Shown here: one piece after another, positions 14,643-29,996 of the stretch
Position numbering within the stretch: position 1 is the first letter of the stretch
Layout of the letters: each line of letters begins with the position of its first letter
Assembly: GCF_037860835.1 (NCBI RefSeq)
Contig: NZ_JBBEOG010000001.1
Location: 372,001-436,000, forward strand
DNA length: 64,000 nucleotides
From: Aquipuribacter nitratireducens
GTDB taxonomy: Bacteria > Actinomycetota > Actinomycetes > Actinomycetales > JBBAYJ01
Direction of reading: 5' to 3'
Position numbers and translations under genes: made by a program
The notes under the pieces: model-generated
The model's database searches: none
What the model saw: only the letters and a program-made list of their open reading frames with translations
Told to the model about the DNA's origin: nothing

Positions 14643-15800
14643 TCAGACCCCGCCCTCCTCCAGCTGCACCTCGGTCTTCTCGAAACCCTCACCGGTGACG
14701 TCGAGACCCTCCTCCTCGAGCTCGGCGACGGCCGACTCCGCGAAGGAGGAGTCGTAGGCGGAGTCGTCGACCTCCGCGCCCTCGAGCTCGGGGATCTGGC
14801 TCGTGGCGACCTGGACGGTCTGCTCCCACTGCGACTCGTCCATCACGCCGATCCCGCCGGGGGAGGGCCAGATGAGGGCGTTGACCTCGTTCATCTGCCA
14901 CGTCTGGTGGCTCGTGCCGAGGGTCGGCCCGGCGGCGAGGACGTGCTCGACGCACGCGTCCGGGTTGTCGCGGCAGAAGATCCAGCCGCGGAACGTGCCG
15001 CGGAGGAACGCCTCGATCGTCTCGCCGTTCTCCGCGGCGTAGTCCTCGGTCACCCACAGGGAGTCCTGGAGCATCGCGGTGCCGACGTCGTTGAAGTCGA
15101 TGACGGTGAAGTCCTCCGGCTGGTACAGCTCGCCGGTGTCGGGGTTCACCGCCTCGAGCAGCTGCGCGTACTCGTTGTAGATCATCGCCTCGGCGGCGTC
15201 GAGGTCGCGGCTCAGCAGGCCCTCCATGTCGAAGTTCTGTGCGACGAGCTCGACGTCCTCCACCCCCTCCTGCTCGATGGCGGCGGTGAGCTCGTACTCG
15301 TTGCCGAAGCCCCAGTTGCCGACCGTCTTCCCCGCCCAGTCGGCGGGCTCGGTGATGCCGGAGTCCGCCCACGACACCATGAGCGTCCCCGAGCGCTGGA
15401 ACACCTGGGCGACGTTGACGAGCCCCGCGCCCTCGGTGTTCGACACGAGCGCCTTCGGCACCCACGCGATGCCGAAGTCCGCGCCGCCGGTGGCGACGAC
15501 CTGCTGGGGCACGATGTCGACCGCCCCCTCGAGGATGCTGACGTCGAGACCCTCCTCCTCGTAGAAGCCCTCCTCCAGCGCGGCGTAGTAGCCGGCGAAC
15601 TGCGCCTGGGCGAACCACTGCAGCTGCAGGCTGACGGGGGTCAGCTCGCCGTCGCCGCCGGCTGCGGCGTCGGTGGCTGCGCCGGACGCCGCCTCGTCGG
15701 GGTCGCCCGTGTCGTCGGCGCCGCCGCAGGCGGCGACCCCGAGGGCGGCCGCGGTGAGGAGCGCGACCGCGGGAGCGAGGGAACGGGACCGTGCTGTCAC
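14643..15800 (-). CDS. ABC transporter substrate-binding lipoprotein, NMT1/THI5-like (NitT/TauT type)
   Basis: A 385-residue solute-binding protein. Its lipoprotein signal ends in LGVAAC with the lipidated Cys at residue 25, followed by an acidic Ala/Asp/Gly linker. The NMT1/THI5 domain begins VSLQLQWFAQAQFAGYYAALEEGFYEEEGLDVSI, a signature of binding proteins for pyrimidine precursors, nitrate, taurine and similar solutes. The GTG start at 15800 has an AGGAGGT site 7 bases upstream. It is the last gene of a minus-strand transporter set, separated from the permease by 45 bases. With pyrimidine-degrading genes nearby, a uracil-, hydantoin- or hydroxymethylpyrimidine-like ligand is likely, but this is inference from context. 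Confidence 0.9.
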   Translation of the reverse strand: MTARSRSLAPAVALLTAAALGVAACGGADDTGDPDEAASGAATDAAAGGDGELTPVSLQLQWFAQAQFAGYYAALEEGFYEEEGLDVSILEGAVDIVPQQVVATGGADFGIAWVPKALVSNTEGAGLVNVAQVFQRSGTLMVSWADSGITEPADWAGKTVGNWGFGNEYELTAAIEQEGVEDVELVAQNFDMEGLLSRDLDAAEAMIYNEYAQLLEAVNPDTGELYQPEDFTVIDFNDVGTAMLQDSLWVTEDYAAENGETIEAFLRGTFRGWIFCRDNPDACVEHVLAAGPTLGTSHQTWQMNEVNALIWPSPGGIGVMDESQWEQTVQVATSQIPELEGAEVDDSAYDSSFAESAVAELEEEGLDVTGEGFEKTEVQLEEGGV

Positions 15801-15845
15801 TGGGACCTCCTGGTGACGGTGGGTGGGACGGGCGGGTCGGGCGGG

Positions 15846-16631
15846 TCAGGCGGTGCTCGTCGCGCGGACGGACACGTGCCAGGGCATGAGGCGGCGCTCG
15901 AGGAACGCGACGACGAGGTAGAGGGAGATCCCGAAGACGGACGCGAGGACGATCGCGGCCCACGCCTCCGCGAACTGGAAGAGGGCCGCCTTCGTCGTGA
16001 TGTACTGCCCGAGCCGGTCCTGCGGCCCGCCGAAGTACTCCTTGACGATCGCGCCGATGAGGCTGAGCGGCGCCGCCACCGTGAGCGCGGAGAACAGGAA
16101 CGGCAGCGCGGTCGGCACCTGGAGCCGCTGCAGCGTCGAGCGGCGGTCGCTGGCGTAGGAGGCCATGAGCTCCCGCTGCGCCGGCGTCGTCGACAGCAGG
16201 CCCCGCAGGACGTTGACCATGACGGGGAAGAACACGAGCACACCCACCACGAAGACGGTGCCGAGCGGGCTCAGCAGACCGAACCACGCGTTGGCGACGG
16301 GCGCGAGCACGATGATCGGCATCGAGTTGACGGCGACGGCGAGCGGCAGGGCACCGCGCCGCACAGGCGTCCACCGGGCGCACGCGGCCGCGGCGAGGAC
16401 GGCGAGGGACGCGCCGACGAGCAGACCGCTCACCGCCCCCGCGAGGGTCGCGAGCCCGGCCGACAGCAGGTCCGGCCACTCCGCCACGATCGCCGCCACG
16501 ACCTCCGACGGCGTGGGGAGGATGAACGACTCCGCCCCGCTGATCCGCAGCACGACCTCGAGCGCGACGAGGGTGCCGACGAACAGCGCGACGGCGGGCG
16601 CCGCGCCCGCGACCCGGCCCCGGGCGCTCAC
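15846..16631 (-). CDS. ABC transporter permease (NitT/TauT type)
   Basis: A 261-residue inner-membrane permease with about six hydrophobic segments. The EAA-loop region reads ELMASYASDRRSTLQRLQVPTALPFLFSALTVAAPLSLIGAIVKEYFGG, typical of BPD_transp_1 permeases of the SsuC/TauC class. The GTG start at 16631 overlaps the ATPase gene's stop codon as GTGA, so the two are translationally coupled. It probably forms a heterodimeric channel with the second permease gene at 17419-18390, to which its C-terminal half is related. Confidence 0.92.
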   Translation of the reverse strand: MSARGRVAGAAPAVALFVGTLVALEVVLRISGAESFILPTPSEVVAAIVAEWPDLLSAGLATLAGAVSGLLVGASLAVLAAAACARWTPVRRGALPLAVAVNSMPIIVLAPVANAWFGLLSPLGTVFVVGVLVFFPVMVNVLRGLLSTTPAQRELMASYASDRRSTLQRLQVPTALPFLFSALTVAAPLSLIGAIVKEYFGGPQDRLGQYITTKAALFQFAEAWAAIVLASVFGISLYLVVAFLERRLMPWHVSVRATSTA

Positions 16632-17422
16632 GACCGGGGGCTCCCGGCGTCGGCGTCGACCTTCCGCAGGGCGTCCCGCACCCGCGTGGTGAGCGCGAAG
16701 AAGCGCTGGTCCTCGCGGGTGTCGTCGTCGCGCTCGCGGGGGAGGTCCACCTCGACCACGTCGGCGATGCGCCCCGGGCGCGGGGACATCACGACGACCC
16801 GCGTCGACAGGAACACCGCCTCCGGGATGGAGTGGGTGACGAAGACGACCGTGGTGCCGGTCTCGCCCCAGATCCGCAGCACCTCCGCCTGCATGCGCTC
16901 CCGCGTCATCTCGTCGAGGGCCCCGAACGGCTCGTCCATGAGGAGGACGGCAGGCCGGAACGCGAGGGCGCGGGCGATCGCCACCCGCTGCTGCATGCCA
17001 CCGGACAGCTGCCACGGGTAGGCGTCGGCGAACTCGGCGAGCCCGACGAGGGCGAGCATCTCGGTGGCGCGGGCGCGGCGCTCGGCCCGGGCGACGCCCA
17101 TGATCTCCAGCGGCAGCTCGACGTTGGCCCGCACCCGCCGCCACTCCAGCAGCGTCGCGGCCTGGAACACCATGCCGTAGGTGCGGTCGAGGCGTGCCCG
17201 GTGCGGGTCCGCGCCGTCGACGAGCACGCTGCCGCTCGTGGGCTGCAGCAGGTCGGCGAGCAGGCGCAGGAGGGTCGACTTGCCGCACCCCGACGGGCCG
17301 ATGAGGGAGACGAACTCGCCTGCCTCGACGTCGAGGTCGATGTGCTCGAGGGCGGTGACCGGGCCGCCGGGCGCGGGGAACACCATCCCCACGTCGGCGA
17401 GGTGGAGGGCGGGGGTGCTCAC
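16628..17422 (-). CDS. ABC transporter ATP-binding protein (NitT/TauT type)
   Basis: A 264-residue ATPase subunit. It has Walker A GPSGCGKST, the Q-loop VFQAATLLEW, the signature LSGGMQQR, Walker B AVLLMDEPFGALDE and the H-loop VTHSI. The sequence LADVGMVFPAPGGPVTALEHIDL at the start is typical of SsuB/TauB/NrtD-like proteins. The start is the GTG at 17422, which overlaps the stop codon of the upstream permease as GTGA; the open frame continues upstream but overlaps that gene completely. It energises uptake by the two permeases and the lipoprotein at 14643-15800. Confidence 0.95.
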   Translation of the reverse strand: MSTPALHLADVGMVFPAPGGPVTALEHIDLDVEAGEFVSLIGPSGCGKSTLLRLLADLLQPTSGSVLVDGADPHRARLDRTYGMVFQAATLLEWRRVRANVELPLEIMGVARAERRARATEMLALVGLAEFADAYPWQLSGGMQQRVAIARALAFRPAVLLMDEPFGALDEMTRERMQAEVLRIWGETGTTVVFVTHSIPEAVFLSTRVVVMSPRPGRIADVVEVDLPRERDDDTREDQRFFALTTRVRDALRKVDADAGSPRS

Positions 17423-18390
17423 GTCGTCCCGACCAGCGGTCGGGCGGTGCCGGTGGGGGCGGTGCCGGTGGGAGCGGTGCCGGTCCGCTCCGCCGGGTCG
17501 GTGTGCCGCAGCGGCGCCGGCACGACGAGGCGCTCGACGAGCGCGACGAGCCCGACGAAGAGCACCCCGAGCAGCGCGGAGACGAGCACGGAGGCGAAGA
17601 GCTTCTCCGGCGCGGCGGAGAAGCTCGACGCGAAGGACAGGATCTGCCGTGCGAGCCCGTCGGACTGCCCGGCCGGCAGCTCCCCGACGATCGCACCGAT
17701 CACGGAGGCGGTCGCGGCGATCCGCAGCGCCGGGAAGAGGAACGGCAGCGCCGCCGGCAGCTGCAGGCGCAGCAGCACGGTCCGTGGTGGTGCGGCGTAG
17801 GAGCGGAACAGCTCCGTCGCCGTCGTGGCGGGGGAGCGCAGCCCCCGGACGGCGGCGATGGTCACTGGGTAGAACGCGAGGTAGGCGGACAGGAACGCGA
17901 CCGGCACCCAGATCGGCACCTGCTCGCGGCGGGCGAAGGAGATGAGGAGCGGCGCGATCGCGAGGACCGGGACCGTCTGCGACGCGATGACGTACGGCAT
18001 GAGGCCCCGCATGGCCACGCGGGAGCGGACCAGCAGCACCGCGAGCAGCAGACCGACGACCGAGCCGACGAGGAAGCCGACGACCGCGATCCGCCACGTG
18101 TAGAACGCGGCCCGGGCGAGGATCACGAGGAGGACCTCCTCGCCGCCGCGGCGGGCGGGCTCGAAGAGCGTGGCGACGATCTCCCACGTGTGCGGCATCG
18201 TCCGGTCGTCGGGCCGGACGGGCAGCCGGACGTCCGTCCCGGGCCACGTGCCGCCGAGGGCCGCGCCGAGCCCCTTGTACGCCTCCCACGCGGCGACGAG
18301 CGCGAGCACGATGAGGCCGGCCGACAGCACGGCGCGCGCGGCGCCCGCGCCCGCCCACGAGGCGGCCCGCCCGGCCACGACCTGCTCCAT
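17419..18390 (-). CDS. ABC transporter permease (NitT/TauT type), first gene of importer operon
   Basis: A 323-residue permease. It contains an unusually long periplasmic stretch after the first transmembrane helix (GGTWPGTDVRLPVRPDDRTMPHTWEIVATLF). The EAA-loop region is ELFRSYAAPPRTVLLRLQLPAALPFLFPALRIAATASVIGAIVGELPAG. The C-terminus carries a Thr/Ala/Pro/Gly repeat (GTAPT twice) from a DNA tandem repeat. ATG 18390 has AGGGTGG upstream. It begins the minus-strand operon permease-ATPase-permease-binding protein and is divergent from the PAP2 gene. Confidence 0.92.
   Translation of the reverse strand: MEQVVAGRAASWAGAGAARAVLSAGLIVLALVAAWEAYKGLGAALGGTWPGTDVRLPVRPDDRTMPHTWEIVATLFEPARRGGEEVLLVILARAAFYTWRIAVVGFLVGSVVGLLLAVLLVRSRVAMRGLMPYVIASQTVPVLAIAPLLISFARREQVPIWVPVAFLSAYLAFYPVTIAAVRGLRSPATTATELFRSYAAPPRTVLLRLQLPAALPFLFPALRIAATASVIGAIVGELPAGQSDGLARQILSFASSFSAAPEKLFASVLVSALLGVLFVGLVALVERLVVPAPLRHTDPAERTGTAPTGTAPTGTARPLVGTT
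17444..17484 (-). repeat. 15-bp tandem repeat at the C-terminal end of the permease gene
   Basis: GCGGTGCCGGTGGGG at 17444-17458 is followed by a copy with one change (17459-17473) and an 11-base partial copy. Being a multiple of three, it only lengthens or shortens the permease's cytoplasmic tail (GTAPT repeats). Confidence 0.7.
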
Positions 18391-18505
18391 CGCGCCACCC
18401 TGGCCGGGCGCCGCCCGGCTGACAAGCACCGTCGTGTGACGACTGCGTAACGCGTCCGGGGCACCTCGACGGGCGCTCGTCCCCCGGGAGGTGCACTCTC
18501 CCTCC

Positions 18506-19483
18506 GTGCCGCAGAACATCGAGATGCCGAGCGGGGGGGACACCTCCGCCGACTGGGGCCGCCTGCGCGGGGCCCGCGCCCGGTGGGCGGCGCTCGCCGT
18601 CCTCGCCCTCGTCGTCGCCCCGTGCCTCGCGCTCACCGGCGCGCTCTTCCTGTCGGAGTCCGACAACTCCCTCGACGCGTTCGACGAGCCGGTGCTCGAG
18701 TGGTTCGTCGGTCTGCGCGAGCCGGTCGGCGAGGTCGTCGTGCGCGTCTACAGCGCCCTCGGGAGCCCCGTCTTCGGCATCCTCTTCACGTTCCTCGCCG
18801 TCGTCGGGCTGGGGGTGCTGTGGCGGAGCAGGACGCCCTTCCTCCTCATGCTCGTCGCGGGTGCCGGGTCGCTGGCGATGTCGATGACGACGAAGGCGTA
18901 CGCGGACCGGGAGCGTCCGCCGGACGCGACGGCCGTCGGCGAGCTCGAGCCGTCGTGGTCCTTCCCCAGCGGGCACGCGCTCAACGCCACGATCATCGCC
19001 GGCGTCCTCGCGTACCTCTTCATCATCCGGGCGCGGCCCGGGCGCTCCGGCCGGGTGGCCGTCGTGGCCGTCACGCTCGCCGTGCTCCACGCCGGTCTCA
19101 TGGGGCTGTCCCGGGTCTACCTCGGGCAGCACTGGTTCACCGACGTCGCCGTCGGCTGGGCGATGGGTGTCGCGTGGCTCGCCGTCGTCCTCGGCGCGCA
19201 CCAGCTGTTCCTGCGCAGCAGGGAGGGCCGGGTCGGTGCCGCGGGCGCCCAGTCGGGCGGGCAGGGCTCAGCCGGTCGGACCGCCCGGCAGGGCGGGTCG
19301 CGCGACGTCGACGACACCGCCGGAGAAGTAGGGGTCGGTGATGCGGACGAGGCCGTCGTCGCTGCGCCGGTAGGAGCCGCTCAACCCGAGCCGCCACGGG
19401 CTGCGGCTGTCGAGGGCGGGCTGCAGGCTCGGGGTGGCGAACCGCTCCGGGTCGACGGCGACGAGCAGCTCGGGAGCCGCTGA
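18506..19483 (+). CDS. PAP2-family membrane phosphatase with long C-terminal tail
   Basis: A membrane phosphatidic-acid/undecaprenyl-pyrophosphate-type phosphatase. The three PAP2 motifs are present: KAYADRERPP (KxxxxxxRP-like), PSGHALNAT (PSGH) and SRVYLGQHWFTDV (SRxxxxxHxxxD). Several hydrophobic segments surround them. The core ends near residue 240. A further ~75 residues are low-complexity and overlap the 3' end of the opposite-strand gene at 19268 by 216 bp, so this tail may be a by-product of a lost stop codon. GTG 18506 follows GGGAGGTG by 12 bases; ATG 18524 and GTG 18491 are alternatives. Likely substrate: a lipid phosphate or polyprenyl pyrophosphate. Confidence 0.85.
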   Translation: MPQNIEMPSGGDTSADWGRLRGARARWAALAVLALVVAPCLALTGALFLSESDNSLDAFDEPVLEWFVGLREPVGEVVVRVYSALGSPVFGILFTFLAVVGLGVLWRSRTPFLLMLVAGAGSLAMSMTTKAYADRERPPDATAVGELEPSWSFPSGHALNATIIAGVLAYLFIIRARPGRSGRVAVVAVTLAVLHAGLMGLSRVYLGQHWFTDVAVGWAMGVAWLAVVLGAHQLFLRSREGRVGAAGAQSGGQGSAGRTARQGGSRDVDDTAGEVGVGDADEAVVAAPVGAAQPEPPRAAAVEGGLQARGGEPLRVDGDEQLGSR

Positions 19484-20806
19484 GCCGGCGTCGCCGCGGG
19501 CCTGGACCGTGCGCGCGTACGCGCGCGCGGTCGTCACGAGCACGTGCCCGCTGGCGTCGGGGCTGCCGTGCAGTGCGGTGCTCGTCGTGACGGCGGTGCC
19601 GGGCATCGCGCCGCGCAGCTCCTCGGCCCACACGGCGACGTCCGCGCGGCGGGGCGCGACGACGACGACGGGCCGGCCCGTGCCGCTGACGTGCCGCAGC
19701 ACGGCGAGCCCGAGCGTGAGGCGACGCTGCGGGTCCGGGTCGACGACGACCCCCCGCCCACCGCCGAGCACCCACGCCTGGACGGCGTCGAGACCCTCGG
19801 GCGACAGGCCGACCTCGTCGGCGGCGCGGGCGAACGCGTCGGACGCGGCCACACCCAGGCGCGAGGCGCGGTCGGCGAGCTCGTCGTTGTGCGCCTGGAG
19901 CAGCTCCCGTGCCGACAGGACCCTGGGGTGGACCGGGCGCTGCTGCACCTCCTCGCGCAGCCGCGCGACCTCCTCCCGCAGCAGGGTGGTCTCGCTGCGG
20001 TGCGAGTCGAGGAGCTGCCCGAGGAGCGCGCGCGTCGCGGACAGCTCCGTGACGAGCGCCTCGACCGCGCGCAGCGCGACGTCCTGGTGGCCGGGGGCCG
20101 TGGGGAAGCCCTGGTCGCGGAGCCGGTCCTCGGCGCGTCTCCGGGGCAGCGGCTGCCACACGCCGGTCGCGGTCCCGGGGGCGGCGTCGCTCGCGCTGTC
20201 GGGGGAGACGGGCGCGGTGCGGGTCGTGCGGCGGGCCGACGGCACGGGCTGGGCGCCGACGGGCGGCGCGGACGGTGCGGGACGGGGAACGGGGGCACCG
20301 ACGGGCCGCGCCGTCGACGGGCCCGGCGGGACCACGCCGGTCGACGGCTGCGACGGGCCCGGAAGGGGCTGCGTCGGGAGGACGGGTGGGGCCGGTGGGG
20401 CCGGGGACGTCCCGGCCCGTGGCGCGACGGGCGGTGCCGGGGCAGGCGGCTCCGGCCACTGCACCTCGACGGGTCCGACCCCGGACGCCAGGCGGGCGGG
20501 GGTGCTGCGCGTGAGGGGCAGGGCGTTGAGGCGGCCGCCGGGGCGTCCGCCGGGCTCGCCGGAGCGGGCGGGTGCGCCGCGGGAGAACGAGGTCTGCGGC
20601 GTGCCGGACCCCATGACACCGGACCCGGCCGCGCGACGGTCGTCGGCGCCGGCGAAGCGGGGGGCGGGCGGCGGCACCGGCGGCGCCGGCGCCTTCTCCT
20701 CCCGTCGGGAGAACCACCGCCGCTTCTGTGGCGGTACGGGGTAGGGCACCACCGTCACCGCGGGCTCGCGCGGGGCCGGTGGCTCCACCGGCTCGGCGTC
20801 GCTCAC
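19268..20806 (-). CDS. Proline-rich protein with coiled coil and a decayed SF2 helicase N-lobe
   Basis: A 512-residue product with no clear family name. Residues 1-~220 are Pro/Ala-rich and likely disordered, with a basic KRRWFSRREEK patch near the start. Residues ~235-285 form a charged coiled coil (ETTLLREEVARLREEVQQ). The last 200 residues track the first RecA-like lobe of XPB-type SF2 helicases: a Walker A position reading GGGRGVVVDPDPQRRL (no GKT), VVVVAPRRADVAVWAEEL (motif Ia), HVLVTTARAY, LLVAVDPERF where DEAH should be, and RLGLSGSYRRSDDGLVRITDPYFSGGVV (motif III). The second lobe is absent. It is probably a non-catalytic DNA or nucleoprotein binder. GTG 20806 has GAGG upstream. Confidence 0.75.
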   Translation of the reverse strand: MSDAEPVEPPAPREPAVTVVPYPVPPQKRRWFSRREEKAPAPPVPPPAPRFAGADDRRAAGSGVMGSGTPQTSFSRGAPARSGEPGGRPGGRLNALPLTRSTPARLASGVGPVEVQWPEPPAPAPPVAPRAGTSPAPPAPPVLPTQPLPGPSQPSTGVVPPGPSTARPVGAPVPRPAPSAPPVGAQPVPSARRTTRTAPVSPDSASDAAPGTATGVWQPLPRRRAEDRLRDQGFPTAPGHQDVALRAVEALVTELSATRALLGQLLDSHRSETTLLREEVARLREEVQQRPVHPRVLSARELLQAHNDELADRASRLGVAASDAFARAADEVGLSPEGLDAVQAWVLGGGRGVVVDPDPQRRLTLGLAVLRHVSGTGRPVVVVAPRRADVAVWAEELRGAMPGTAVTTSTALHGSPDASGHVLVTTARAYARTVQARGDAGSAAPELLVAVDPERFATPSLQPALDSRSPWRLGLSGSYRRSDDGLVRITDPYFSGGVVDVARPALPGGPTG

Positions 20807-20887
20807 GTGTGCCTCATCGGCATCTGCGTGACGGTCTTGAGCCGGACGGGTTACGCACCCGCCCCAGCAGCCGCCCCGGCGACGACC

Positions 20888-20951
20888 GTCATGATCCGTG
20901 AGGTCCGTCGCCGCCGGTGCCCGGATCGCACGACAAGGGTCATGATCCGTG
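20888..20951. repeat. Two direct copies of GTCATGATCCGTG between divergent genes
   Basis: The 13-mer GTCATGATCCGTG occurs at 20888-20900 and again at 20939-20951, 51 bases apart (about five helical turns). It lies between the minus-strand helicase-like gene (start 20806) and the VOC gene (21023). Each copy contains the palindrome TCATGA. It is a candidate regulator binding site pair; the regulator is unknown. Confidence 0.55.
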
Positions 20952-21022
20952 CCCGGCCGCACGCGGACACCGCGGAGTCGGGGGACCGGGAACCCGCGAG
21001 GGCCGAGCGGTGTTCGTCGGGT

Positions 21023-21433
21023 GTGCGCCTCACCGGTACCGCCGTGTCGCTCGTCGTCCCCGACCCTGCCGGCTCGGCCGACTGGTTCGTCGACCATCTC
21101 GGCTTCGTCGTCGCCATGCGGGCCGACGGATTCGTGTCCCTGGCTCATCCCGACTCGGGCGCCAACCTCGTGCTCCTCGACCCCGACCTGCCGACCCTCG
21201 CCCCCGCCGAGCTGCGCGGGAGCAGGGTCGCGGGCGTGCTCCTCGCCTTCGTCGTCGAGGACGTCGACGCGGAGCACACCCGCCTCGTCGCCTCGGGCGT
21301 CGACGTCGTCGCGGCGCCCGAGACGGAGCCGTGGGGCGAGCGGTTCAGCCAGTACCGCGACCCCAGCGGTCTCCTCGTCCAGCTCGTGACGTGGGTCGAG
21401 GAGCCTCCGGCCGAGGTCGTCGGGGCCCGCTGA
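21023..21433 (+). CDS. VOC (glyoxalase/bleomycin-resistance) family protein
   Basis: A 136-residue single-module vicinal-oxygen-chelate protein. It has GTAVSLVVPDPAGSADWFVDHLGFVVAMRADGFVSLAHPDSGANLVLL (first beta-alpha-beta-beta-beta unit) and GVLLAFVVEDVDAEHTRLVASGVDVVAAPETEPWGERFSQYRDPSGLLVQLVTW (second unit, with the metal-ligand Glu region). Such proteins include dioxygenases, isomerases and drug-binding proteins; the substrate is unknown. The GTG at 21023 begins at the fold; ATG 20942 is an in-frame alternative adding 27 unconserved residues and would overlap the 13-bp repeat. It converges on the aminotransferase gene with 6 bases between stops. Confidence 0.8.
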   Translation: MRLTGTAVSLVVPDPAGSADWFVDHLGFVVAMRADGFVSLAHPDSGANLVLLDPDLPTLAPAELRGSRVAGVLLAFVVEDVDAEHTRLVASGVDVVAAPETEPWGERFSQYRDPSGLLVQLVTWVEEPPAEVVGAR

Positions 21434-21439
21434 GCGCGC

Positions 21440-22783
21440 TCAGCCGATCGAGCGGATGGCGTCGGCGAGGAGCGCGGCGCCCTCGTCGGCCTCGTCGTCG
21501 GTGAGCGTGAGGGGCGGCGCGACGCGGAGCACGTTGCCGTACAGCCCGCCCTTGCCGATGAGGAGCAGGCGCTCCTTGCAGGCCTCCGTGAGCGCGGCGG
21601 CCCGCGCCGGGTCGGGCTCGACGCCGCCCGGGTGGACGGTCTCGAGGGCGAGCATGAGGCCCTTGCCCCGCAGCTCGGCGATCCACGGCGTCTCGTTCAC
21701 GACCGGCTGGAGCACCGCGCGCAGGCGCTCGCCCTGGCGGCGGGCGTTGCCCTGGAGGTCGTGCTCGACGAGGTAGCGGAGGTTGGCGTTCGCGGCCGCG
21801 GAGACGAGCGGGGACCCGCCGAACGTCGAGATGTGGTTGGCGGCGATGGCGTCGACGACCTCCGCCCGGGCGACCACGCCGCCGAGGGGGACTCCGTTCC
21901 CGACGCCCTTGGCGAAGGTCAGGAGGTCCGGCGTGATGCCGTGCGCCTGGTAGCCCCAGAAGTTCTCGCCCGTACGGCCCCAGCCGGTCTGGACCTCGTC
22001 GGAGACGAAGAGGATGCCGTGCTCGTCGAGGACCTCCTTGATCGCGCCGAAGAAGCCGTCGGGCGGTGTCGCGAACCCGCCGACGCCCTGGACGGGCTCG
22101 GCGATGAGGCACGCGACGTCGCCGGAGGTCGCCATGTCGAGCAGCTGGCGCAGGTCGGCGACGCATGCCGCCGTGTACTCCCCGTCCGGCAGGTCGCGGA
22201 AGGGGGAGCGGAGCCGGTAGCCGCCCTGGACGTACGTCACCTGCAGCCCGGAGAAGCTCGTCGGGCTCCACGAGCGGTGGCTCGTGATGCCGATCGTGGA
22301 GAACGAGCGCCCGTGGTAGCTGTTGCGCATCGCGAGGACCTGGTTGCTGCGCCGGTACGCGGTCGCCATGAGGAGCGCCGCGTCGTTGGCCTCGGTCCCG
22401 GACGGCGTGAGGAACACCTTCGCGTCGGGGATGCCGGACAGCCCGGCGATGCGCTCGGCCAGCTCGATGGTCTGCTCGTTGAGGTAGAGCGTGCTCGAGT
22501 GGAGGATCTTCCCGGCCTGCTCCTGCACCGCCGCGGTGACCTCGGGCAGGGCGTGCGCGGTCATCGTCGTGAGGATGCCGCCGAAGAAGTCGAGGTAGCG
22601 CGTGCCCTCGACGTCCCACACGTGCCGGCCCTCGCCGTGCGACAGGGCGATCGGCTGCTCGTAGTACAGCGCCTGCCAGCGGGGCATGACGGCGCGGTGG
22701 CGGGCGAGCAGGTCCTCGGTGCGGGCGCGGTCGGACGCGGGAGCGGTGCCCGCGTGCCCGACCGCCGGGTCGGTCAGCGTCAT
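21440..22783 (-). CDS. Class III PLP aminotransferase (AGXT2/beta-alanine-type)
   Basis: A 447-residue omega-aminotransferase. Key parts are the YLDFFGGILTTMTAH N-terminus, PSGTEANDAALLMA (cofactor phosphate binding), NSYHGRS, LIAEPVQGVGGF, ILFVSDEVQTGWGRTG (Asp contacts the pyridine ring), and LLTFAKGVGNGVPLGG with the Schiff-base lysine in TFAKG. It is closest in pattern to alanine-glyoxylate transaminase 2 and beta-alanine/beta-aminoisobutyrate:pyruvate aminotransferases. In the reductive pyrimidine pathway this converts beta-alanine to malonate semialdehyde, the substrate of the mmsA product encoded nearby. A TACCGT box (22790-22795, minus) lies 6 bases before ATG 22783, so the transcript is probably leaderless. 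Confidence 0.9.
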   Translation of the reverse strand: MTLTDPAVGHAGTAPASDRARTEDLLARHRAVMPRWQALYYEQPIALSHGEGRHVWDVEGTRYLDFFGGILTTMTAHALPEVTAAVQEQAGKILHSSTLYLNEQTIELAERIAGLSGIPDAKVFLTPSGTEANDAALLMATAYRRSNQVLAMRNSYHGRSFSTIGITSHRSWSPTSFSGLQVTYVQGGYRLRSPFRDLPDGEYTAACVADLRQLLDMATSGDVACLIAEPVQGVGGFATPPDGFFGAIKEVLDEHGILFVSDEVQTGWGRTGENFWGYQAHGITPDLLTFAKGVGNGVPLGGVVARAEVVDAIAANHISTFGGSPLVSAAANANLRYLVEHDLQGNARRQGERLRAVLQPVVNETPWIAELRGKGLMLALETVHPGGVEPDPARAAALTEACKERLLLIGKGGLYGNVLRVAPPLTLTDDEADEGAALLADAIRSIG

Positions 22784-22798
22784 GGCCTGACGGTAGGG

Positions 22799-23053
22799 CT
22801 ACTCGTCGCGCGGGTCGAGGGACTCGGGCTCGCTCTGGAAGTTCACGCCGAGGCCGCTCGCCTGACCGCTGCCGAGCCCGGTGTCGGAGCCGAGCGCGGC
22901 GACGTCGGCGCGGTCGAGCCCGAGGGAGCGGAGCAGCTCGGCGTGCTCCTCGGTGTCGACCCGCTCGGGCAGCTCGGACTCGGCGCGTCGGACCTGCTCG
23001 TCGTCGCCTCGGGTGCGGAGGCTGTCGAGGACCTCGGCCTTGGAGACGTGCAT
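22799..23053 (-). CDS. Small acidic hypothetical protein
   Basis: An 84-residue protein beginning MHVSKAEVLDSLRTRGDDEQVRRAESELPERVDTEEHAELLRSLGLDRADV, predicted as alpha-helical, followed by a Gly/Ser-rich acidic tail. The start ATG at 23053 is fixed by GAGGAGGAGG six bases upstream, a very strong ribosome binding site. There is no signal peptide or membrane segment. The helical part resembles short conserved actinobacterial proteins of unknown role. It lies 15 bases upstream of the aminotransferase start and could be read with it. Confidence 0.75.
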   Translation of the reverse strand: MHVSKAEVLDSLRTRGDDEQVRRAESELPERVDTEEHAELLRSLGLDRADVAALGSDTGLGSGQASGLGVNFQSEPESLDPRDE

Positions 23054-23186
23054 GCTGCTCCTCCTCCTCGTCGTCGGGCGGGGTCGCGGCGGGGCGCGTG
23101 CGACCCGAGGACGAGGTGCCCGGTGCACGGGGGGCGAAACCCCCCTGGACGCGCGGGTCGCCCGGTCGCTGTCTACCGTCCCGTCC

Positions 23187-23924
23187 ATGACCCTCATGCA
23201 GCCCCGGGACCTCACCGGCACCGTCGTCGCCATCACCGGAGCGAGCGCCGGGATCGGTCGCGCGACCGCGGAGGCGTGTGTCGCCGCCGGCGCGAACGTC
23301 GCCGTCGGCGCCCGCCGGCTGGAGCGCCTCGACGCCCTCGCCGACGAGCTCGGCCGGGACCGCGTCGAGTGCGTCGAGATGGACGTCCGTGAGCCTGCGG
23401 GCAACGCGCGCCTCGTGCAGGCGGCGCTCGACCGGTGGGGGCGCCTGGACTCCGTCGTGCCGAACGTCGGGATCGGCTCCTACGGCTCGATCCTCCACAT
23501 GAGCGACGACGAGGTCGCCGACATGGTGGACACGAACGTCACCGGCACCGTCCACACGATCCGCGCGGCCCTGCCGCACCTGCTCGAGCGCGGCGAGGGC
23601 GACGTCGTCATCGTCGCCTCCGTCGCGAGCTTCCGCGGCGGCGCGGACGAGGCCGTGTACGCGGCGACGAAGTTCGCCCAGCAGGGCCTTGCGGGCTCCC
23701 TCGACCGCGAGCTGCGGGAGAAGGGCATCCGGGTGTCGACGGTCAACCCGGCCGGGGTCGAGACTGAGTTCGCCATCGGCCGCGGGCGCACCGAGGGCGA
23801 TCCGGCGCTGGCGGAGTACCTGCGACCGGAGCAGGTCGCCCACGCGATCGTCACCGTGCTCCAGCAGCCGCGGAGCATGCGGACGCAGTCGTGGGCGTTC
23901 TGGCCCATGGGCCAGCAGAGCTGA
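23187..23924 (+). CDS. Classical short-chain dehydrogenase/reductase
   Basis: A 245-residue SDR with the cofactor motif TGASAGIG (residues 17-24), GARRLERLDAL where Arg residues after the second strand favour NADP(H), an N-N-like VPNVGIGSYG replacing NNAG, a conserved Ser in VASVASF, and catalytic Tyr158 and Lys162 (YAATK). It resembles YdfG-type enzymes that reduce hydroxy-acid semialdehydes, including malonate semialdehyde. Here that would give 3-hydroxypropionate from the pathway encoded next door, but specificity is inference. A TACCGT box at 23174-23179 stands 7 bases before ATG 23187, suggesting leaderless mRNA. It converges on the LLM gene with 18 bases between. Confidence 0.86.
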   Translation: MTLMQPRDLTGTVVAITGASAGIGRATAEACVAAGANVAVGARRLERLDALADELGRDRVECVEMDVREPAGNARLVQAALDRWGRLDSVVPNVGIGSYGSILHMSDDEVADMVDTNVTGTVHTIRAALPHLLERGEGDVVIVASVASFRGGADEAVYAATKFAQQGLAGSLDRELREKGIRVSTVNPAGVETEFAIGRGRTEGDPALAEYLRPEQVAHAIVTVLQQPRSMRTQSWAFWPMGQQS

Positions 23925-23942
23925 CCGGTCCGACGGGCCCGG

Positions 23943-24956
23943 TCAGGTCCCCCGACGCAGGACGGGCGCGACCCGCTCGCCGTAGGCGGTGAGGGTCGCC
24001 TCCGGCTCGTCGTGCATGAGGTAGACGGCGAACTGGTCGACGCCGAGGTCACGCAGCTCCGCGAGCCGCTCGAGGTGGCGCTCGACCGGCCCGAGCAGGC
24101 AGAAGCGGTCGATGACCTCGTCCGGCACGAAGTCGGTGTGCGTGTTGCCCGCCCGGCCGTGCTCGGCGTAGTCGTAGCCCTGCCGGCCCCGGATGTAGTC
24201 GGTGAGGGCGGTCGGCACGGCCGCCCCGGCGTCGCCGTAGCGCCCGACGAGGTCGGCGACGTGGTTGCCGACCATGCCACCGAACCAGCGGACCTGGTCG
24301 CGCATGTGCGGCAGGCGCTCCTCGGGCCCGACGTACGCGGGCGCGGCCACGATCACGTAGAGGGAGTCCGGGTCCCGCCCGGCCGCGGCCGCGGCCTCGC
24401 GGACGGCGCCGATCGTCCACTCGACGATCGAGGGGTCCGCCAGCTGGAGGATGAAGCCGTCGGCGTGCTCGCCGCACGTCTGCAGCGCCTTGGGCCCGTA
24501 CCCGGCCATGTAGACGGGCAGGGACCCGCCGGCGCGCCACGGGAAGGCGATCTCCCGCTCGTTGTATGTGACGGTGCGTCCCTCGGCGAGGGCCTTGACC
24601 GTGTGCATGGCGTCGCGCACCTCCCCGAGCGTGCACGGGCTGCGGCCGATGTAGCGCATCGCGGAGTCGCCGCGACCGAAGGCGCACACCGTCCGCTCGC
24701 CGTACATGTCGTGCAGCGTGGCGTGGAGGCTCGCGATCACCGTCCAGTCGCGGGTGCCCGGGTTCGTCACCATCGGGCCGACGACCATCCGGTGGGTGGC
24801 GGCGAGGACCTGGCTGTAGACGACGTACGGCTCCTGCCACAACACGTGGGAGTCGAACGTCCAGCCGTGGCTGAAGCCGAGGGTCTCCGCGCGGCGGAGC
24901 AGGTCGACGACCCGCCACGCCGGCGGGTCGTTCTGCAGCACGAGCCCGAGGTCCAT
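23943..24956 (-). CDS. LLM-family (luciferase-like) F420/flavin-dependent oxidoreductase linked to pyrimidine catabolism
   Basis: A 337-residue luciferase-like TIM-barrel oxidoreductase. Seen: MDLGLVLQNDPPAWRVVDLLRRAETLGFSHGWTFDSHVLWQEPY at the start, VVGPMVTNPGTRDW, CAFGRGDSAMRYIG, GSLPVYMAGYGPKALQTCGEHADGFILQLADP, and LLGPVERHLERLAELRDLGVDQFAVYLMHD near the end. It resembles the F420-dependent subgroup that occurs beside dihydropyrimidinase genes (TIGR03842-like, from memory). It is the third gene of a tight operon hydA-mmsA-LLM: 10 bases separate it from mmsA. The reaction is unknown. It may supply the uracil-reduction step, because no dihydropyrimidine dehydrogenase is nearby. RutA, a uracil-ring-opening monooxygenase, is a distant relative. 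Confidence 0.85.
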   Translation of the reverse strand: MDLGLVLQNDPPAWRVVDLLRRAETLGFSHGWTFDSHVLWQEPYVVYSQVLAATHRMVVGPMVTNPGTRDWTVIASLHATLHDMYGERTVCAFGRGDSAMRYIGRSPCTLGEVRDAMHTVKALAEGRTVTYNEREIAFPWRAGGSLPVYMAGYGPKALQTCGEHADGFILQLADPSIVEWTIGAVREAAAAAGRDPDSLYVIVAAPAYVGPEERLPHMRDQVRWFGGMVGNHVADLVGRYGDAGAAVPTALTDYIRGRQGYDYAEHGRAGNTHTDFVPDEVIDRFCLLGPVERHLERLAELRDLGVDQFAVYLMHDEPEATLTAYGERVAPVLRRGT

Positions 24957-24966
24957 GCGCGCGCCC

Positions 24967-26454
24967 TCAGTGGTTCCGCGGGAAGCCGAGGTCGACGCTC
25001 GACGTCGCCGGGTCCGGCCAGCGGCTCGTCACGACCTTGCCGCGCGTCCAGAAGTGGATGCCCTCCGGGCCGTACATGTGGGTGTCACCGAAGAGGGAGT
25101 CCTTCCAGCCACCGAAGGAGTAGTAGCCGACCGGGACGGGGATCGGGACGTTGACCCCGACCATCCCGGCGCTCACCTCGTGCTGGAAGCGCCGGGCCGC
25201 GCCGCCGTCGCGGGTGAAGATCGCCGCCCCGTTGCCCCAGGGGTTCGCCTCGACGAGTCCGACGGCCTCCGCGTACGTCTCCGCGCGCACGACGCACAGC
25301 ACCGGCCCGAAGATCTCGTCGGTGTAGACGCTCATGTCCGCGGTCACGTGGTCGAGCAGCGTGACCCCGAGGAAGAAGCCGTCGCCGTCGAACCGCTTCT
25401 GCCGCCCGTCGACGACGACGCGGGCGCCGGCCTGCTCGCCGGCGTCGACGTAGCCGGCGACCCGGTCGCGGTGCTCGCGGGTGATGAGCGGTCCCATCTG
25501 GGAGTCCGGGTCGGAGCCGGGCCCGATGACGAGCTTGTCGACGCGGGCGGCGACGGCGTCGACCAGCGCGTCGCCGACGTCCCCGACGGCGACGACGACG
25601 CTGACGGCCATGCACCGCTCGCCCGCCGAGCCGTACGCGGCGCCGACCGCCGCGTCGGCGGCGAGGTCGACGTCGGCGTCGGGCAGCACGACCATGTGGT
25701 TCTTCGCCCCGCCGAGGGCCTGGACGCGCTTCCCGGCCGCCGTGCCCGTCGTGTAGACGTGCCGCGCGATCGGCGTCGACCCCACGAAGCTGACCGCCGC
25801 GATCCCCGGGTGCGTGAGCAGGTGGTTCACGGCCTCCGCGTCGCCGTTGACGACGTTGAGGACACCGGGCGGGAACCCGGCCTCGGCGAAGAGCTCGGCG
25901 ACGAACATCGGCGCCGAGGGGTCCTTCTCGCTCGGCTTGAGGACGAACGTGTTCCCGCACGCCACGGCGTTCGGGATCATCCACAGCGGGACCATCGCCG
26001 GGAAGTTGAAGGGCGTGATGCCGGCGACGACCCCGAGCGGCTGCCGCAGGGAGTAGACGTCGACGCCGCCGGAGGCCTGCTCGCTGTAGCCGCCCTTGAG
26101 GAGCTCCGCGAGCCCGCACGCGTACTCGATGTTCTCCAGGGCCCGCGCGACCTCGCCGCCGGCGTCGGACAGGACCTTCCCGTGCTCGGCGGACAGCCGC
26201 CGGGCGAGCTCGTCCCGGTTCGCCTCGACGAGCTCGCGGAAGCGGAACAGCAGCCGGGTGCGGGCGGCGATCGAGGTCTCCCGCCACTCGGTCGCCGCCT
26301 CGGCGGCGGAGGACACCGCGGCGTCGACCTCGGCGGTGCTCGCGAGGTCGACGTGGGCGCTGACCTCGCCGGTGGCGGGGTCGTGGACGGGGGCGCTGCG
26401 GCCGGAGACGCCCGGGCGGACGCCGTTGTCGACCCAGTGGGAGATGCGGTTCAC
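24967..26454 (-). CDS. mmsA: CoA-acylating (methyl)malonate-semialdehyde dehydrogenase
   Basis: A 495-residue aldehyde dehydrogenase of the MmsA/IolA branch. It converts malonate semialdehyde or methylmalonate semialdehyde, NAD+ and CoA to acetyl-CoA or propionyl-CoA plus CO2. Diagnostic features are GVVAGITPFNFPAMVPLWMIPNAVACGNTFVLKPSEKDPS, SFVGSTPIARHVYTTG, GGAKNHMVVLPDAD, the catalytic Cys281 in GSAGERCMAVS, and the C-terminal VPIPVPVGYYSFGGWKDSLFGDTHMYGPEGIHFWTRGK. In the pyrimidine pathway it removes the product of the aminotransferase. It lies 38 bases downstream of hydA and 10 bases before the LLM gene, in one operon. Confidence 0.94.
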   Translation of the reverse strand: MNRISHWVDNGVRPGVSGRSAPVHDPATGEVSAHVDLASTAEVDAAVSSAAEAATEWRETSIAARTRLLFRFRELVEANRDELARRLSAEHGKVLSDAGGEVARALENIEYACGLAELLKGGYSEQASGGVDVYSLRQPLGVVAGITPFNFPAMVPLWMIPNAVACGNTFVLKPSEKDPSAPMFVAELFAEAGFPPGVLNVVNGDAEAVNHLLTHPGIAAVSFVGSTPIARHVYTTGTAAGKRVQALGGAKNHMVVLPDADVDLAADAAVGAAYGSAGERCMAVSVVVAVGDVGDALVDAVAARVDKLVIGPGSDPDSQMGPLITREHRDRVAGYVDAGEQAGARVVVDGRQKRFDGDGFFLGVTLLDHVTADMSVYTDEIFGPVLCVVRAETYAEAVGLVEANPWGNGAAIFTRDGGAARRFQHEVSAGMVGVNVPIPVPVGYYSFGGWKDSLFGDTHMYGPEGIHFWTRGKVVTSRWPDPATSSVDLGFPRNH

Positions 26455-26474
26455 GGACGGATCCTCTCAGCGCG

Positions 26475-26500
26475 GGTGCTCAGCGGAGGTGCTCAGCGGA
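26475..26500 (-). repeat. 13-bp tandem duplication across the hydA stop codon
   Basis: GGTGCTCAGCGGA is repeated head to tail at 26475-26487 and 26488-26500 (plus sense). The hydA stop codon lies in the second copy, and the duplicate supplies a second in-frame-looking TGA region after it. It looks like a recent small duplication with no effect on the protein. Confidence 0.7.
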
Positions 26501-27902
26501 GGTACGACGACAGCCCGCGCGGCACGAACCGGCCGTGGCCCTTCGTCCCGAGGTACTGCCCGCGGTCGACGACGACGGTGCCGCGGGACATGACGGTCCG
26601 GACCCCGCCGGCGATCTCGAACCCCTCGTAGGCGGAGTAGTCCATCGCCATGTGGTGCGTGGCGGCGCTGATCGTCGTCCGGGCCTGCGGGTCGTACAGG
26701 ACGATGTCGGCGTCCGACCCGGGGGCGATGACGCCCTTCTTCGGGTACATGCCGAACATCCGCGCCGGTGTCGTGGCGCACGTCTCGACCCACCGGGCGA
26801 GACTGAGCTCACCGGTCACGACGCCCTGGTAGACGAGGTCCATCCGGTGCTCGACCCCGCCGATGCCGTTGGGGATGAGGCGGAAGTCGTCGCGGCCCAG
26901 CTCCTTCTGGTCCTTGAAGCAGAACGGGCAGTGGTCGGTCGCGACGATGGCGAGGTCGTTCGTGCGCAGCCCCCGCCACAGGTCGCGGTGGTGGTGCTCG
27001 TGCTTGCTCCGCAGCGGGGAGGAGCACACGTACTTCGCCCCCTCGAACCCGTCCTCGCCGGGGGCGCCGAGGTGGTCCTCGAGCGTGAGGTAGAGGTACT
27101 GGGGGCACGTCTCGGCGAAGACGTTGTGGCCCTCGGCGCGTGCGCGGACGACCTCCGCCAGCGCCTCGCTGCTCGACAGGTGGACGAAGTAGACCGGTGC
27201 CCCGGCGACGAGGGCGAGCTGGATGGCCCGGTGCGTGGCCTCGCCCTCCAGTCGCGCGGGTCGGGTGATGCCGTGGTGGATGGGCGCGGTCTCGCCGCGG
27301 GCGGCGGCCTGCTCGGCGAGCACGTCGATCGCGATGCCGTTCTCGGCGTGCATGGAGATGAGCGCCCCGAGCTCGGCGGCGCGCTGCATCGCGCGCAGGA
27401 TCTGCCCGTCGTCGGAGTAGAAGACGCCCGGGTACGCCATGAAGAGCTTGAAGCTCGTGATGCCCTCGGCGACGAGGTCGCCCATGAGCTTGAGGCTCGC
27501 GTCGTCGACCCCGCCGATGATCATGTGGAACGCGTAGTCGACGGCGCACTCCCCCTCGGCCTTGCCGTACCACGTGTCGAGGCTCTCTCGGACGTCGTTG
27601 CCGGCCGTCTGCACGGCGAAGTCGATGATCGTCGTCGTGCCGCCGTACGCCGCGGCACGCGTGCCCGTCTCGAACGTGTCGGAGGAGAACGTCCCGCCGA
27701 ACGGGAGCTCCATGTGGGTGTGGGCGTCGATGCCGCCCGGCACCACGTACGTGCCCGTCGCGTCGACCGTGGTGTCCGCCGTGATGCCCTGCGTGCCGGG
27801 GGCCAGGAGGGCGACGACCTTCTCGTCCTCGACCAGCACGTCGTGGGCGATGGCGCCCGTGGCGCTGACGACCGTGCCGTTGGTGATGAGGGTCCGGGTC
27901 AT
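26493..27902 (-). CDS. hydA: Dihydropyrimidinase (D-hydantoinase)
   Basis: A 469-residue cyclic amidohydrolase that opens dihydrouracil or dihydrothymine to N-carbamoyl-beta-alanine or its methyl analogue. The binuclear zinc site is complete: His61 and His63 (DAHTHMELPFGG), the lysine to be carboxylated, Lys152 (SFKLFMAYPG), His185 (SMHAENG), a His in YFVHLSS, and the Asp in VATDHCPF. The substrate-binding Tyr is present in the MAYPGVFYSDD loop. ATG 27902 follows GAGGAG. Upstream is a promoter, TTTACC-17-TAGCGT, shared with the nitrilase gene. First gene of the hydA-mmsA-LLM operon. Because hydantoinases overlap this family, hydantoin hydrolysis is also possible, but the neighbours favour pyrimidines. 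Confidence 0.94.
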   Translation of the reverse strand: MTRTLITNGTVVSATGAIAHDVLVEDEKVVALLAPGTQGITADTTVDATGTYVVPGGIDAHTHMELPFGGTFSSDTFETGTRAAAYGGTTTIIDFAVQTAGNDVRESLDTWYGKAEGECAVDYAFHMIIGGVDDASLKLMGDLVAEGITSFKLFMAYPGVFYSDDGQILRAMQRAAELGALISMHAENGIAIDVLAEQAAARGETAPIHHGITRPARLEGEATHRAIQLALVAGAPVYFVHLSSSEALAEVVRARAEGHNVFAETCPQYLYLTLEDHLGAPGEDGFEGAKYVCSSPLRSKHEHHHRDLWRGLRTNDLAIVATDHCPFCFKDQKELGRDDFRLIPNGIGGVEHRMDLVYQGVVTGELSLARWVETCATTPARMFGMYPKKGVIAPGSDADIVLYDPQARTTISAATHHMAMDYSAYEGFEIAGGVRTVMSRGTVVVDRGQYLGTKGHGRFVPRGLSSYLR

Positions 27903-27930
27903 GCTGCGCTCCTCGCGTCCGGGGCTCTCG

Positions 27931-27959
27931 ACGCTAGACCGGGGTCCGGCGCGGGTAAA
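27931..27959 (-). promoter_or_regulatory. hydA operon promoter
   Basis: On the minus strand TTTACC (27959-27954) is separated by exactly 17 bases from TAGCGT (27936-27931), 28 bases before the hydA ATG. The same hexamers and spacing precede the nitrilase gene (30931-30903), with the flanking CCTTTACC and TAGCGTCG also shared. Direct observation; joint control is inferred. Confidence 0.7.
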
Positions 27960-27965
27960 GGACCC

Positions 27966-28406
27966 TCATGCGGCTGCGGGGTCGTGGACCGAGCCGTCCG
28001 CGCGGGGGAGGGCCACGTATGGGGCGCCCGCCACGCGGAGCGTGTCGAGCATGTCGGGGTCGGACGTGGCGACGGGGGCTCCGGAGCGCACACCCTCAGC
28101 GAGGACGAGGCAGTCGGCGAGGCTGAGCGGCGCGCGGGTGCGGTGGTAGGCGTGCGCCCGCAGCACTCCCGCCCGGACGGCGAGGTCCGCGTCGACGCCG
28201 GTCACCGACAGCGGCAGCTGCCGGAGGCTCAGCGCGACGTCGCTCGCCGGCCGGCCGCTGAGGCGGCCGACACGGTCGACGACCTCGGTGAGGGTGGTGG
28301 CGAGGGTCCGGGTGCCCACGTCCGGGTCCAGCAGCAGGCCACGGACGACGGGTGCCGCCGGTTCCCCGCGCAGCGCGGCCACGAGCGCGCAGGCGTCGAG
28401 GATCAC
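27966..28406 (-). CDS. PIN-domain ribonuclease, VapC-like toxin
   Basis: A 146-residue PIN-domain protein. The acidic Mg2+ site is present: Asp4 (MILDAC), Glu41 (TTLTEVV), Asp98 (LADCLVLA) and an Asp in ATSDPDML. VapC toxins cleave tRNA or rRNA when free of antitoxin. The GTG start at 28406 overlaps the stop of the antitoxin gene as GTGA, the usual toxin-antitoxin arrangement. It stops 6 bases before the hydA promoter region, so the pair interrupts the pyrimidine genes. The RNA target cannot be told. Confidence 0.88.
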   Translation of the reverse strand: MILDACALVAALRGEPAAPVVRGLLLDPDVGTRTLATTLTEVVDRVGRLSGRPASDVALSLRQLPLSVTGVDADLAVRAGVLRAHAYHRTRAPLSLADCLVLAEGVRSGAPVATSDPDMLDTLRVAGAPYVALPRADGSVHDPAAA

Positions 28407-28645
28407 GGCGGTTCCTTGCGCGTCTCGATCCGGGCCTCCTCCTCCCGGGACAGCGCCTGCAGCTCGTCGGAGGTGACGGGGGTCCGGTAGCGCCCGATGA
28501 CCGCGTCGACGTCCTCGACCGGGTCACCGGTCACGGGGCGCATCACGAGGGTGTCCCCGAGATCGAGGACGAGCACGTGGGAGGTGGCCCAGCGGCGACG
28601 TACGTCGGCCGGCAGGGAGACCTGACCGTTCCGGGACACCTTCAT
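28403..28645 (-). CDS. AbrB/MazE-like swapped-hairpin antitoxin of the PIN toxin
   Basis: An 80-residue protein. Its N-terminal half reads MKVSRNGQVSLPADVRRRW, the SpoVT-AbrB DNA-binding fold of many VapB antitoxins. The C-terminal half, with an acidic PVEDVDAVIGRYR segment and a charged tail (SREEEARIETRKEPP), would wrap the toxin. I start at ATG 28645, where the fold starts; an upstream GTG at 28675 and ATG 28696 are in frame. It is expected to neutralise the PIN protein and repress its own promoter. The upstream 60 bases are unusually A/T-rich for this genome. Confidence 0.84.
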   Translation of the reverse strand: MKVSRNGQVSLPADVRRRWATSHVLVLDLGDTLVMRPVTGDPVEDVDAVIGRYRTPVTSDELQALSREEEARIETRKEPP

Positions 28646-28654
28646 GAGGGCTGC

Positions 28655-28702: not shown

Positions 28703-28717
28703 AAGCGACCAGTCGGC

Positions 28718-29905: not shown

Positions 29906-29996
29906 GGGGGTCTCCTCGCGGGTGAGGGCTCGACCGGTCGTCCCGGTCCCTACCCACCGCTCGGCGCCCCACCCCTCCCGCGGGTCGGCTCCCCGC

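Follow-up and report, generated by a model that had tools for sequence, protein, structure and literature searches.

Organization of the probable pseudo-helicase gene

The window analyzed here is a stretch of 64,000 nucleotides from the genome of Aquipuribacter nitratireducens (contig NZ_JBBEOG010000001.1, positions 372,001 to 436,000, forward strand). The gene in question (19268..20806, minus strand) encodes a protein of 512 amino acids whose C-terminal part is homologous to the first lobe (lobe 1) of superfamily 2 (SF2) helicases and lacks the motifs of the ATP site. It starts with a GTG codon at 20806, and a GAGG sequence (20812-20815) lies 5 nt upstream. The genome (G000) is 3.8 Mb in size. 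At a GC content of 75%, both strands carry long open frames; thus, the open reading frame (ORF) by itself is no proof of a gene.

All parts of the protein are encoded on the minus strand. Residues 1-238 (20093..20806) form a Pro/Ala-rich arm, which the alignment of three orthologues suggests is probably disordered, and are followed by a long helix, likely a coiled coil, at residues 240-289 (19940..20089) that is present in both AlphaFold 2 (AF2) models described below. A second long helix, residues 294-332 (19811..19927), links the coil to the lobe in the AF2 model of 38 sequences. The RecA-like lobe 1, as delimited by profile, alignment, and predicted structure, spans residues 334-503 (19298..19807). 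Within it, the motif I (Walker A) position falls at residues 355-363 (19718..19744), where EAVTGxGKT is replaced by VDPDPQRRL, the motif II position at residues 451-455 (19442..19456), where DExHR is replaced by VDPER, and the motif III position at residues 476-478 (19373..19381), where TAT is replaced by SGS. A preliminary description of this gene, made from the sequence alone, had placed a coiled coil and a Pro-rich region ahead of a helicase-like lobe, and this layout was recovered as a long helix and a Pro-rich arm; the lobe itself was found as claimed, with a length of about 170 residues and not 200.

The C-terminal part is homologous to SF2 helicase lobe 1

Beyond the genus, the window protein found matching sequences in 3 of the 36 other genomes searched (E 1e-8 to 5e-7), and every match was an SF2 helicase that carries GKT and DExH. 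A sensitive profile search had been proposed as a check, and a profile built from three intact SF2 helicases only (A4) matched the window ORF (E 4.0e-11) and both of its orthologues (2.7e-13 and 5.8e-23) in six-frame searches of whole genomes. When the window protein was aligned with intact relatives, one register held across the lobe, including the Walker A and DExH positions. The AF2 model obtained from the three pseudo-members alone was poor, with a predicted local distance difference test score (pLDDT) of 53 and a predicted template modelling score (pTM) of 0.45, and its Foldseek list consisted mostly of SF2 helicases and remodellers, yet none at E <=0.001. The model obtained from 38 aligned lobes, which is helped by the helicases in the alignment as the three-sequence model is not, reached a pLDDT of 86 and a pTM of 0.70; its best Foldseek match was XPB (E 1.8e-7), and VIA-align 2 superposed it on XPB (2fwr) with a Z score of 19.5 and a root-mean-square deviation of 2.9 over 164 residues (model 92-270, chain 90-257). 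The helicase profile, the single-register alignment, and the predicted match to XPB lobe 1 agree with the XPB-like SF2 first lobe of the preliminary description.

General family searches returned little. A Pfam scan of the window protein up to E 10 gave no usable match and one chance-level helix-turn-helix match; PF04851, PF00270, and PF00271 matched neither the window protein (E up to 10) nor the orthologues L010 and L011 (E up to 0.1), and NCBIfam, PADLOC, and phmmer against PDB sequences yielded nothing usable for the window protein. Since no usable Pfam match exists, the helicase likeness is visible only by family-specific profiles or structure. Searches by tblastn of plasmids and of phages gave no match at 1e-5; at E 1, the plasmids gave three weak matches, namely a DEAD/DEAH helicase and two genes annotated as sigma-70 factors. 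With the A3 profile, no match was confirmed in viral contigs, and none was obtained in genome contigs.

The gene is conserved in the genus

The genus was sampled with three genomes, that of the window (G000), G001, and G002. Orthologues are present in both of the other genomes sampled for the family (3/3), and part of the neighborhood is common to them. Over their full length, the orthologues share 64% (L010) and 48% (L011) identity with the window protein; L011 is the G002 gene, whose 5' end is missing because the contig ends. Identity over the coil and lobe is higher, 84% for G001 and 61% for G002. In this region, identity among the six frames peaks in the named one, which is free of stops and collects its changes mostly at codon position 3, and this is true of all three species pairs. 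The ratio of nonsynonymous to synonymous substitution rates (dN/dS) varies along the protein: it is 0.45-0.64 for residues 1-30 and 0.69-1.12, near free evolution, for the Pro-rich linker (residues 31-238), and the coil and lobe against G001 give 0.26 (lobe alone 0.36), within the range of 11 nearby genes (0.07-0.42). With the higher value against G002 (0.64) taken into account, the protein is retained, though less strictly than most adjacent genes.

The ATP site and the second lobe are lost

As read from the sequences, the ATP site is lost throughout the orthologous group (3/3 genus genomes). In motif I, 0 of the 8 columns conserved in intact relatives are kept across all three genus proteins; G-K-T is replaced by RRL or QRL, so that K has become R and T has become L in every one, which matches the loss of GKT claimed earlier. 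The Asp-Glu pair of motif II, which the preliminary description had read as VDPE, is VDPE or VDAE in the three proteins, with D, E, and H all replaced and the R kept. Motif III, whose region the preliminary description had counted among the matching segments, is itself altered (SGS, SGG, and SAG for TAT). The W-Q of the Q-motif (positions W337 and Q338) is replaced in 3/3, as are three further positions where the helicase consensus and the window residue differ (L389D, Q392V, and S429A), which we take to belong to the motif Ia/Ic region. Some of the residues that took the place of the lost motifs are uniform: D358, R362, L363, D452, and E454 are present in all three proteins.

Of 48 columns conserved at 85% or more across 31 intact relatives, the three genus proteins share 19 without change, and none of the 19 falls in motif I, in motif III, or at the D, E, or H of motif II. 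They are L334, A341, W345, G352, V382, P385, W393, L447, A450, R455, and L465, and a C-terminal set of R472, L473, L475, R481, D483, P492, Y493, and F494. The three proteins stop 1-11 residues past a common GGVVxV block, and the helicase profile found no second-lobe match at the three genus loci (E 0.001). The second lobe is therefore missing in all three, which end before it, as had been noted at the outset.

Intact and degenerate relatives

The A3 profile was also run against genomes of the order and the class as a first look, with at most eight candidates scored per genome in the order and at most six in the class (6-10 across searches). In the order, 12 of 297 genomes had matches, namely the three of the genus and nine others; eight of these nine are intact (GK[TS] with DExH), and one (G059) has GRV with DEVH. 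In the class, matches were found in 8 of 394 genomes: the window genome, five intact ones, G399, and G409. A wider profile (A7) added more relatives, chiefly outside the class, and GK[TS] and DExH were present in 31/31 loci whose motifs were read; among these 31, L088-L092 had already been found in the order and class searches, and L093-L096, L135, and L136 score below 80 bits and are perhaps other SF2 helicases. A7 loci L097-L114 and L137-L141 lie outside the 31-locus count, and low-scoring A7 matches are not counted as relatives. The preliminary description had held that relatives with an intact GKT would speak against it; such relatives exist at a distance, and the two orthologues are not among them, so the finding documents ancestry and is no refutation. 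The G059 protein (L074 5092-6807; L025) has GRV at the Walker A position and keeps DEVH, and its lobe-2 motifs appear changed by eye; because it falls elsewhere in the trees, it is probably a separate loss.

Intact relatives L012, L013, and L014 are of the ResIII type in Pfam. In PADLOC, the best profile for intact L013, L014, L075, L076, and L078 is PbeA, in its helicase part, and PbeA is also the best match of degenerate L070 and L071, in the helicase part only. Two further features of intact relatives were observed. At L012 (1219-3483) and L013 (1-2100), an intact SF2 helicase of this family carries sigma-70 regions 1.2 and 2 fused on its C-terminal side (Pfam above cut-off); both genes recur as L019 and L021, a helicase-sigma fusion was seen by eye at L018 and L020, and the two plasmid genes labelled sigma-70 factors are those that weakly match the pseudo-lobe. 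This fusion is worth a separate study. Some intact relatives (L069, L067, L075, and L078) adjoin ORFs that by eye resemble restriction or defence genes (C5-methyltransferase-, NERD-, and UvrD-like).

Degenerate genes of the Frankiaceae type

A search of genome contigs with another profile (A5) gave one match, JAICMG010000107.1 of Frankiaceae bacterium isolate LS_ISSM_2_bin.122, which is G409. G399 and G409 carry the same genus and family label, and only these two of the 12 genomes of the Frankiaceae-type family have such genes. Both encode Pro-rich proteins with a long coiled coil and both helicase lobes. G409 has SGAGKT with DQVH, the first copy of G399 has GTDKT with DQVH, and the adjacent second copy has GVDRQ with DDLH. 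Along this series the Pfam matches weaken: ResIII gives 44 and 47 bits for the first two proteins, Helicase_C is absent or under the cut-off, and no Pfam helicase family is found in the second G399 copy, L010, L011, or the window protein. The Frankiaceae-type proteins look like earlier stages of helicase loss. The genes occur in tandem (L070 141-5999; L071 1133-3586 and 2-892), with two degenerate helicase copies in G399, and one copy and a neighbor matching its coiled-coil part in G409, near the contig end.

In a tree of 38 lobes, the three genus proteins and the three Frankiaceae-type proteins stand on one side of a branch with support of 95/82, which was 97/89 with 25 catalytic columns masked and 90.8/96 under a simpler model. 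Several results count against a single origin of the two groups. The point was left unresolved by the first tree, which had 21 lobes; under the approximately unbiased (AU) test, none of four alternative placements is rejected (p 0.24-0.41); a long branch (2.3-2.75) leads to the window family; and support for grouping the three Frankiaceae rows with one another is weak (52/19). Because of the long branch, the unresolved 21-lobe tree, and the AU test, we treat a single origin of the window family and the Frankiaceae-type genes as a lead only.

The gene sits among metabolic genes

The neighborhood scan covered the ten adjoining ORFs only, with NCBIfam. Three neighbors were above cut-off, methylmalonate-semialdehyde dehydrogenase (MMSDH; TIGR01722), dihydropyrimidinase (TIGR02033), and an LLM oxidoreductase (TIGR03842), and aminotransferase and ABC transporter genes are also in the neighborhood, so that the pseudo-helicase gene, as far as the family assignments go, sits among metabolic genes. 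The region around it (14643-30839) resembles a cluster for pyrimidine and beta-alanine catabolism (dihydropyrimidinase, MMSDH, aminotransferase, nitrilase-type amidase, LLM oxidoreductase, and ABC transporter). In G001, the same genes lie nearby, with the LLM gene directly before the pseudo-helicase gene, and in G002, ABC genes directly follow it. In the window, in G399, and in G409, an MMSDH-like gene is found at a distance of about 4-5 kb. As a proof of common descent, this shared neighbor was set aside as weak, because a closer G399 homologue (67%) is on another contig, the G002 gene is on another contig, and many neighbor pairs were compared.

The gene had been proposed to act as a partner of a real helicase. 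The searches of G000 turned up no intact member of this helicase family (no match at E 1e-30), and no helicase was found among the ten neighboring ORFs scanned, so the proposal gained no support. The best other match of the helicase profile in G000 (56.5 bits) is a distant outgroup in the 21-lobe tree. Neither a CxC ABC-ATPase nor DndE was found among the ten neighboring ORFs scanned (NCBIfam only; not every ORF).

On the opposite strand, an ORF resembling a PAP2 phosphatase (18506-19483, plus strand) overlaps the pseudo-helicase gene antisense for 216 nt; its homologue in G001 is shorter and stops before the pseudo-helicase gene. The PAP2 name was assigned by eye, and NCBIfam gave only a weak match to undecaprenyl-diphosphatase.

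A probable retained pseudo-helicase and its alternatives

We consider it probable that the gene encodes a retained pseudo-helicase that serves as a non-catalytic, oligomeric binding module. The pseudo-helicase of the preliminary description is supported by profile, alignment, predicted structure, and the loss of motifs in 3/3 genus genomes. Its ancestor would be an actinobacterial SF2 helicase of the ResIII/XPB-like kind, whose scanned relatives are nearest to the helicase part of PbeA in PADLOC. The Q-motif, motifs I, II, and III, and the whole of lobe 2 would have been lost, and the lobe-1 fold kept, preceded by a disordered Pro-rich arm and a coiled coil. An SF2 protein without the Q-motif, motifs I-III, and lobe 2 cannot work as a motor and should lack helicase-type ATP binding; the protein would thus neither bind nor hydrolyze ATP in the manner of a helicase. 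Self-association is likely because of the long helix in both models and the heptad moment: the coil would form a dimer or higher oligomer in which several RecA-like lobes together make up a passive module for binding, and the Pro-rich arm would serve as a spacer or tether. A binding use of the lobe seems a reasonable supposition. We lean toward a protein rather than DNA as the ligand, which is a guess, since some positions presumed to face nucleic acid (L389D, Q392V, and S429A) changed while the C-terminal set was kept.

Several results weigh against this interpretation. The coil and lobe against G002 give a dN/dS of 0.64, which exceeds the 0.25-0.46 of four nearby genes and implies weaker constraint than usual; a fifth G002 gene, a permease, was out of frame and is left out of this comparison. 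The 3.5-residue hydrophobic moment of the coil helix has p values of 0.037, 0.041, and 0.158 in the three orthologues, so the periodicity is significant in just two of them. With the helicase profile A4, the window gene reaches just 42 bits in G000, lower than another helicase (56.5 bits). The genus is represented by only three genomes, and the few candidates scored per genome in the A3 searches mean that absences elsewhere are not firm.

The same dN/dS of 0.64, together with the 0.69-1.12 of the linker, the loss of the ATP site and lobe 2, and the failure to find a close relative outside the genus, would also fit a slowly decaying relic, a dead helicase gene minus lobe 2 that awaits removal and has no present function. 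We hold this to be unlikely, as the frame is open in three of three species with 84% and 61% identity over coil and lobe, changes are in excess at codon position 3, the dN/dS against G001 (0.26) is within the range of nearby genes, and some of the residues that replaced the lost motifs are the same throughout (D358, R362, L363, D452, and E454 in 3/3). Slightly less credence goes to the partner idea of the preliminary description, in which the protein would be a subunit with a regulatory or structural role in an active helicase or nucleic-acid complex and would bind through helicase-like surfaces in a hetero-oligomer. The likely coiled coil fits such a role, the two unequal degenerate coiled-coil helicases side by side in G399 may mean hetero-oligomers, and there is a precedent in the PriA of Deinococcus radiodurans, which is reported to have no ATPase, to bind DNA, and to interact with the replicative helicase (PMC4504706); yet the genome yielded no intact helicase of this family, and none was seen in the ten neighboring ORFs scanned.

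Two other explanations are still less probable. In all three species, R362-L363 and D358 now stand in the former P-loop, as might be seen if the domain were a neofunctionalized alpha/beta domain with a new ligand site or activity at the old ATP site; this is improbable, since no other enzyme family reaches a curated cut-off in Pfam or NCBIfam and no further conserved constellation was noticed. Finally, a GC content of 75% keeps long frames open on both strands and Pfam gives nothing usable, which might suggest that there is no helicase lobe at all and that the likeness arose by chance in a high-GC frame. With profile E-values down to 5.8e-23, a single alignment register, and a structural Z of 19.5 to XPB, such an origin is hardly credible.

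Comparison with known proteins and significance

XPB is an active two-lobe DNA helicase. Its lobe 1 (PDB 2fwr, 6p66, and 5tnu) is the best structural match of the window lobe model (Z 19.5, 164 residues), with 21% identity over the aligned lobe; unlike XPB, the window lobe is without any of the ATP-site motifs.

In bacteria, the D. radiodurans PriA is described as a pseudohelicase with poor Walker A and B boxes and no ATPase or unwinding activity, which binds DNA and interacts with the organism's own replicative helicase (PMC4504706). Like the window protein, it is a retained descendant of a bacterial helicase with K replaced by R in GKT (PMC4504706). It is an orthologue of active PriA, whereas no active orthologue of the window protein was found. 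It also has the general build of PriA, and the window protein differs in having one lobe, in the loss of the Q-motif and motif III as well, and in its coiled coil and Pro-rich arm. Utp25/Def likewise keeps a helicase fold with an N-terminal accessory region, and its DEAD-box motifs are dispensable; unlike the window protein, it is a eukaryotic ribosome-assembly factor with both helicase domains and is DEAD-box rather than XPB-like (PMC9539457).

PbeA of the PbeABCD / CxC-DndE defence systems is reported to be a fusion of an HKD nuclease with an SF2 helicase (PMC6459918, PMC10853773). Its helicase part is the best PADLOC profile for five intact and two Frankiaceae-type degenerate relatives, whereas for the window protein PADLOC gave no family at E 0.01 and Pfam no PLD nuclease up to E 10. 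The inactive SWI2/SNF2 domain of DndH is also a helicase-derived P-loop domain from prokaryotes, for which its authors suppose a binding role; unlike the window protein, it lies within a multi-domain defence protein and is of the SWI2/SNF2 type (PMC10853773).

Pseudo-helicases as such are already known, and the one-lobed coiled-coil build is a new variant; no such form was found in the literature searched, and the claim of its absence rests on those searches alone. The term 'pseudohelicase' occurs in only three papers of that literature, one of which names a bacterial protein, D. radiodurans PriA, in its title. Proteins of this kind can be wholly overlooked by annotation at the level of Pfam.

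The graded loss among the relatives carries the most weight. It is possible, and we propose it tentatively, that a lineage of coiled-coil pseudo-helicases in the Actinomycetes arose from a PbeA-like defence helicase that would first have become ATP-locked (GKT with DQVH), would then have lost ATP binding and finally lobe 2, and may have left oligomeric scaffolds that work without ATP and are kept on the chromosome; its most reduced member would be the window gene, and the Frankiaceae-type tandem genes would represent earlier stages. With relatives at apparently successive stages, biochemistry can test the order of loss, with hydrolysis going first, ATP binding second, and lobe 2 last, and pseudo-enzymes of this kind reveal uses of a motor fold without its engine.

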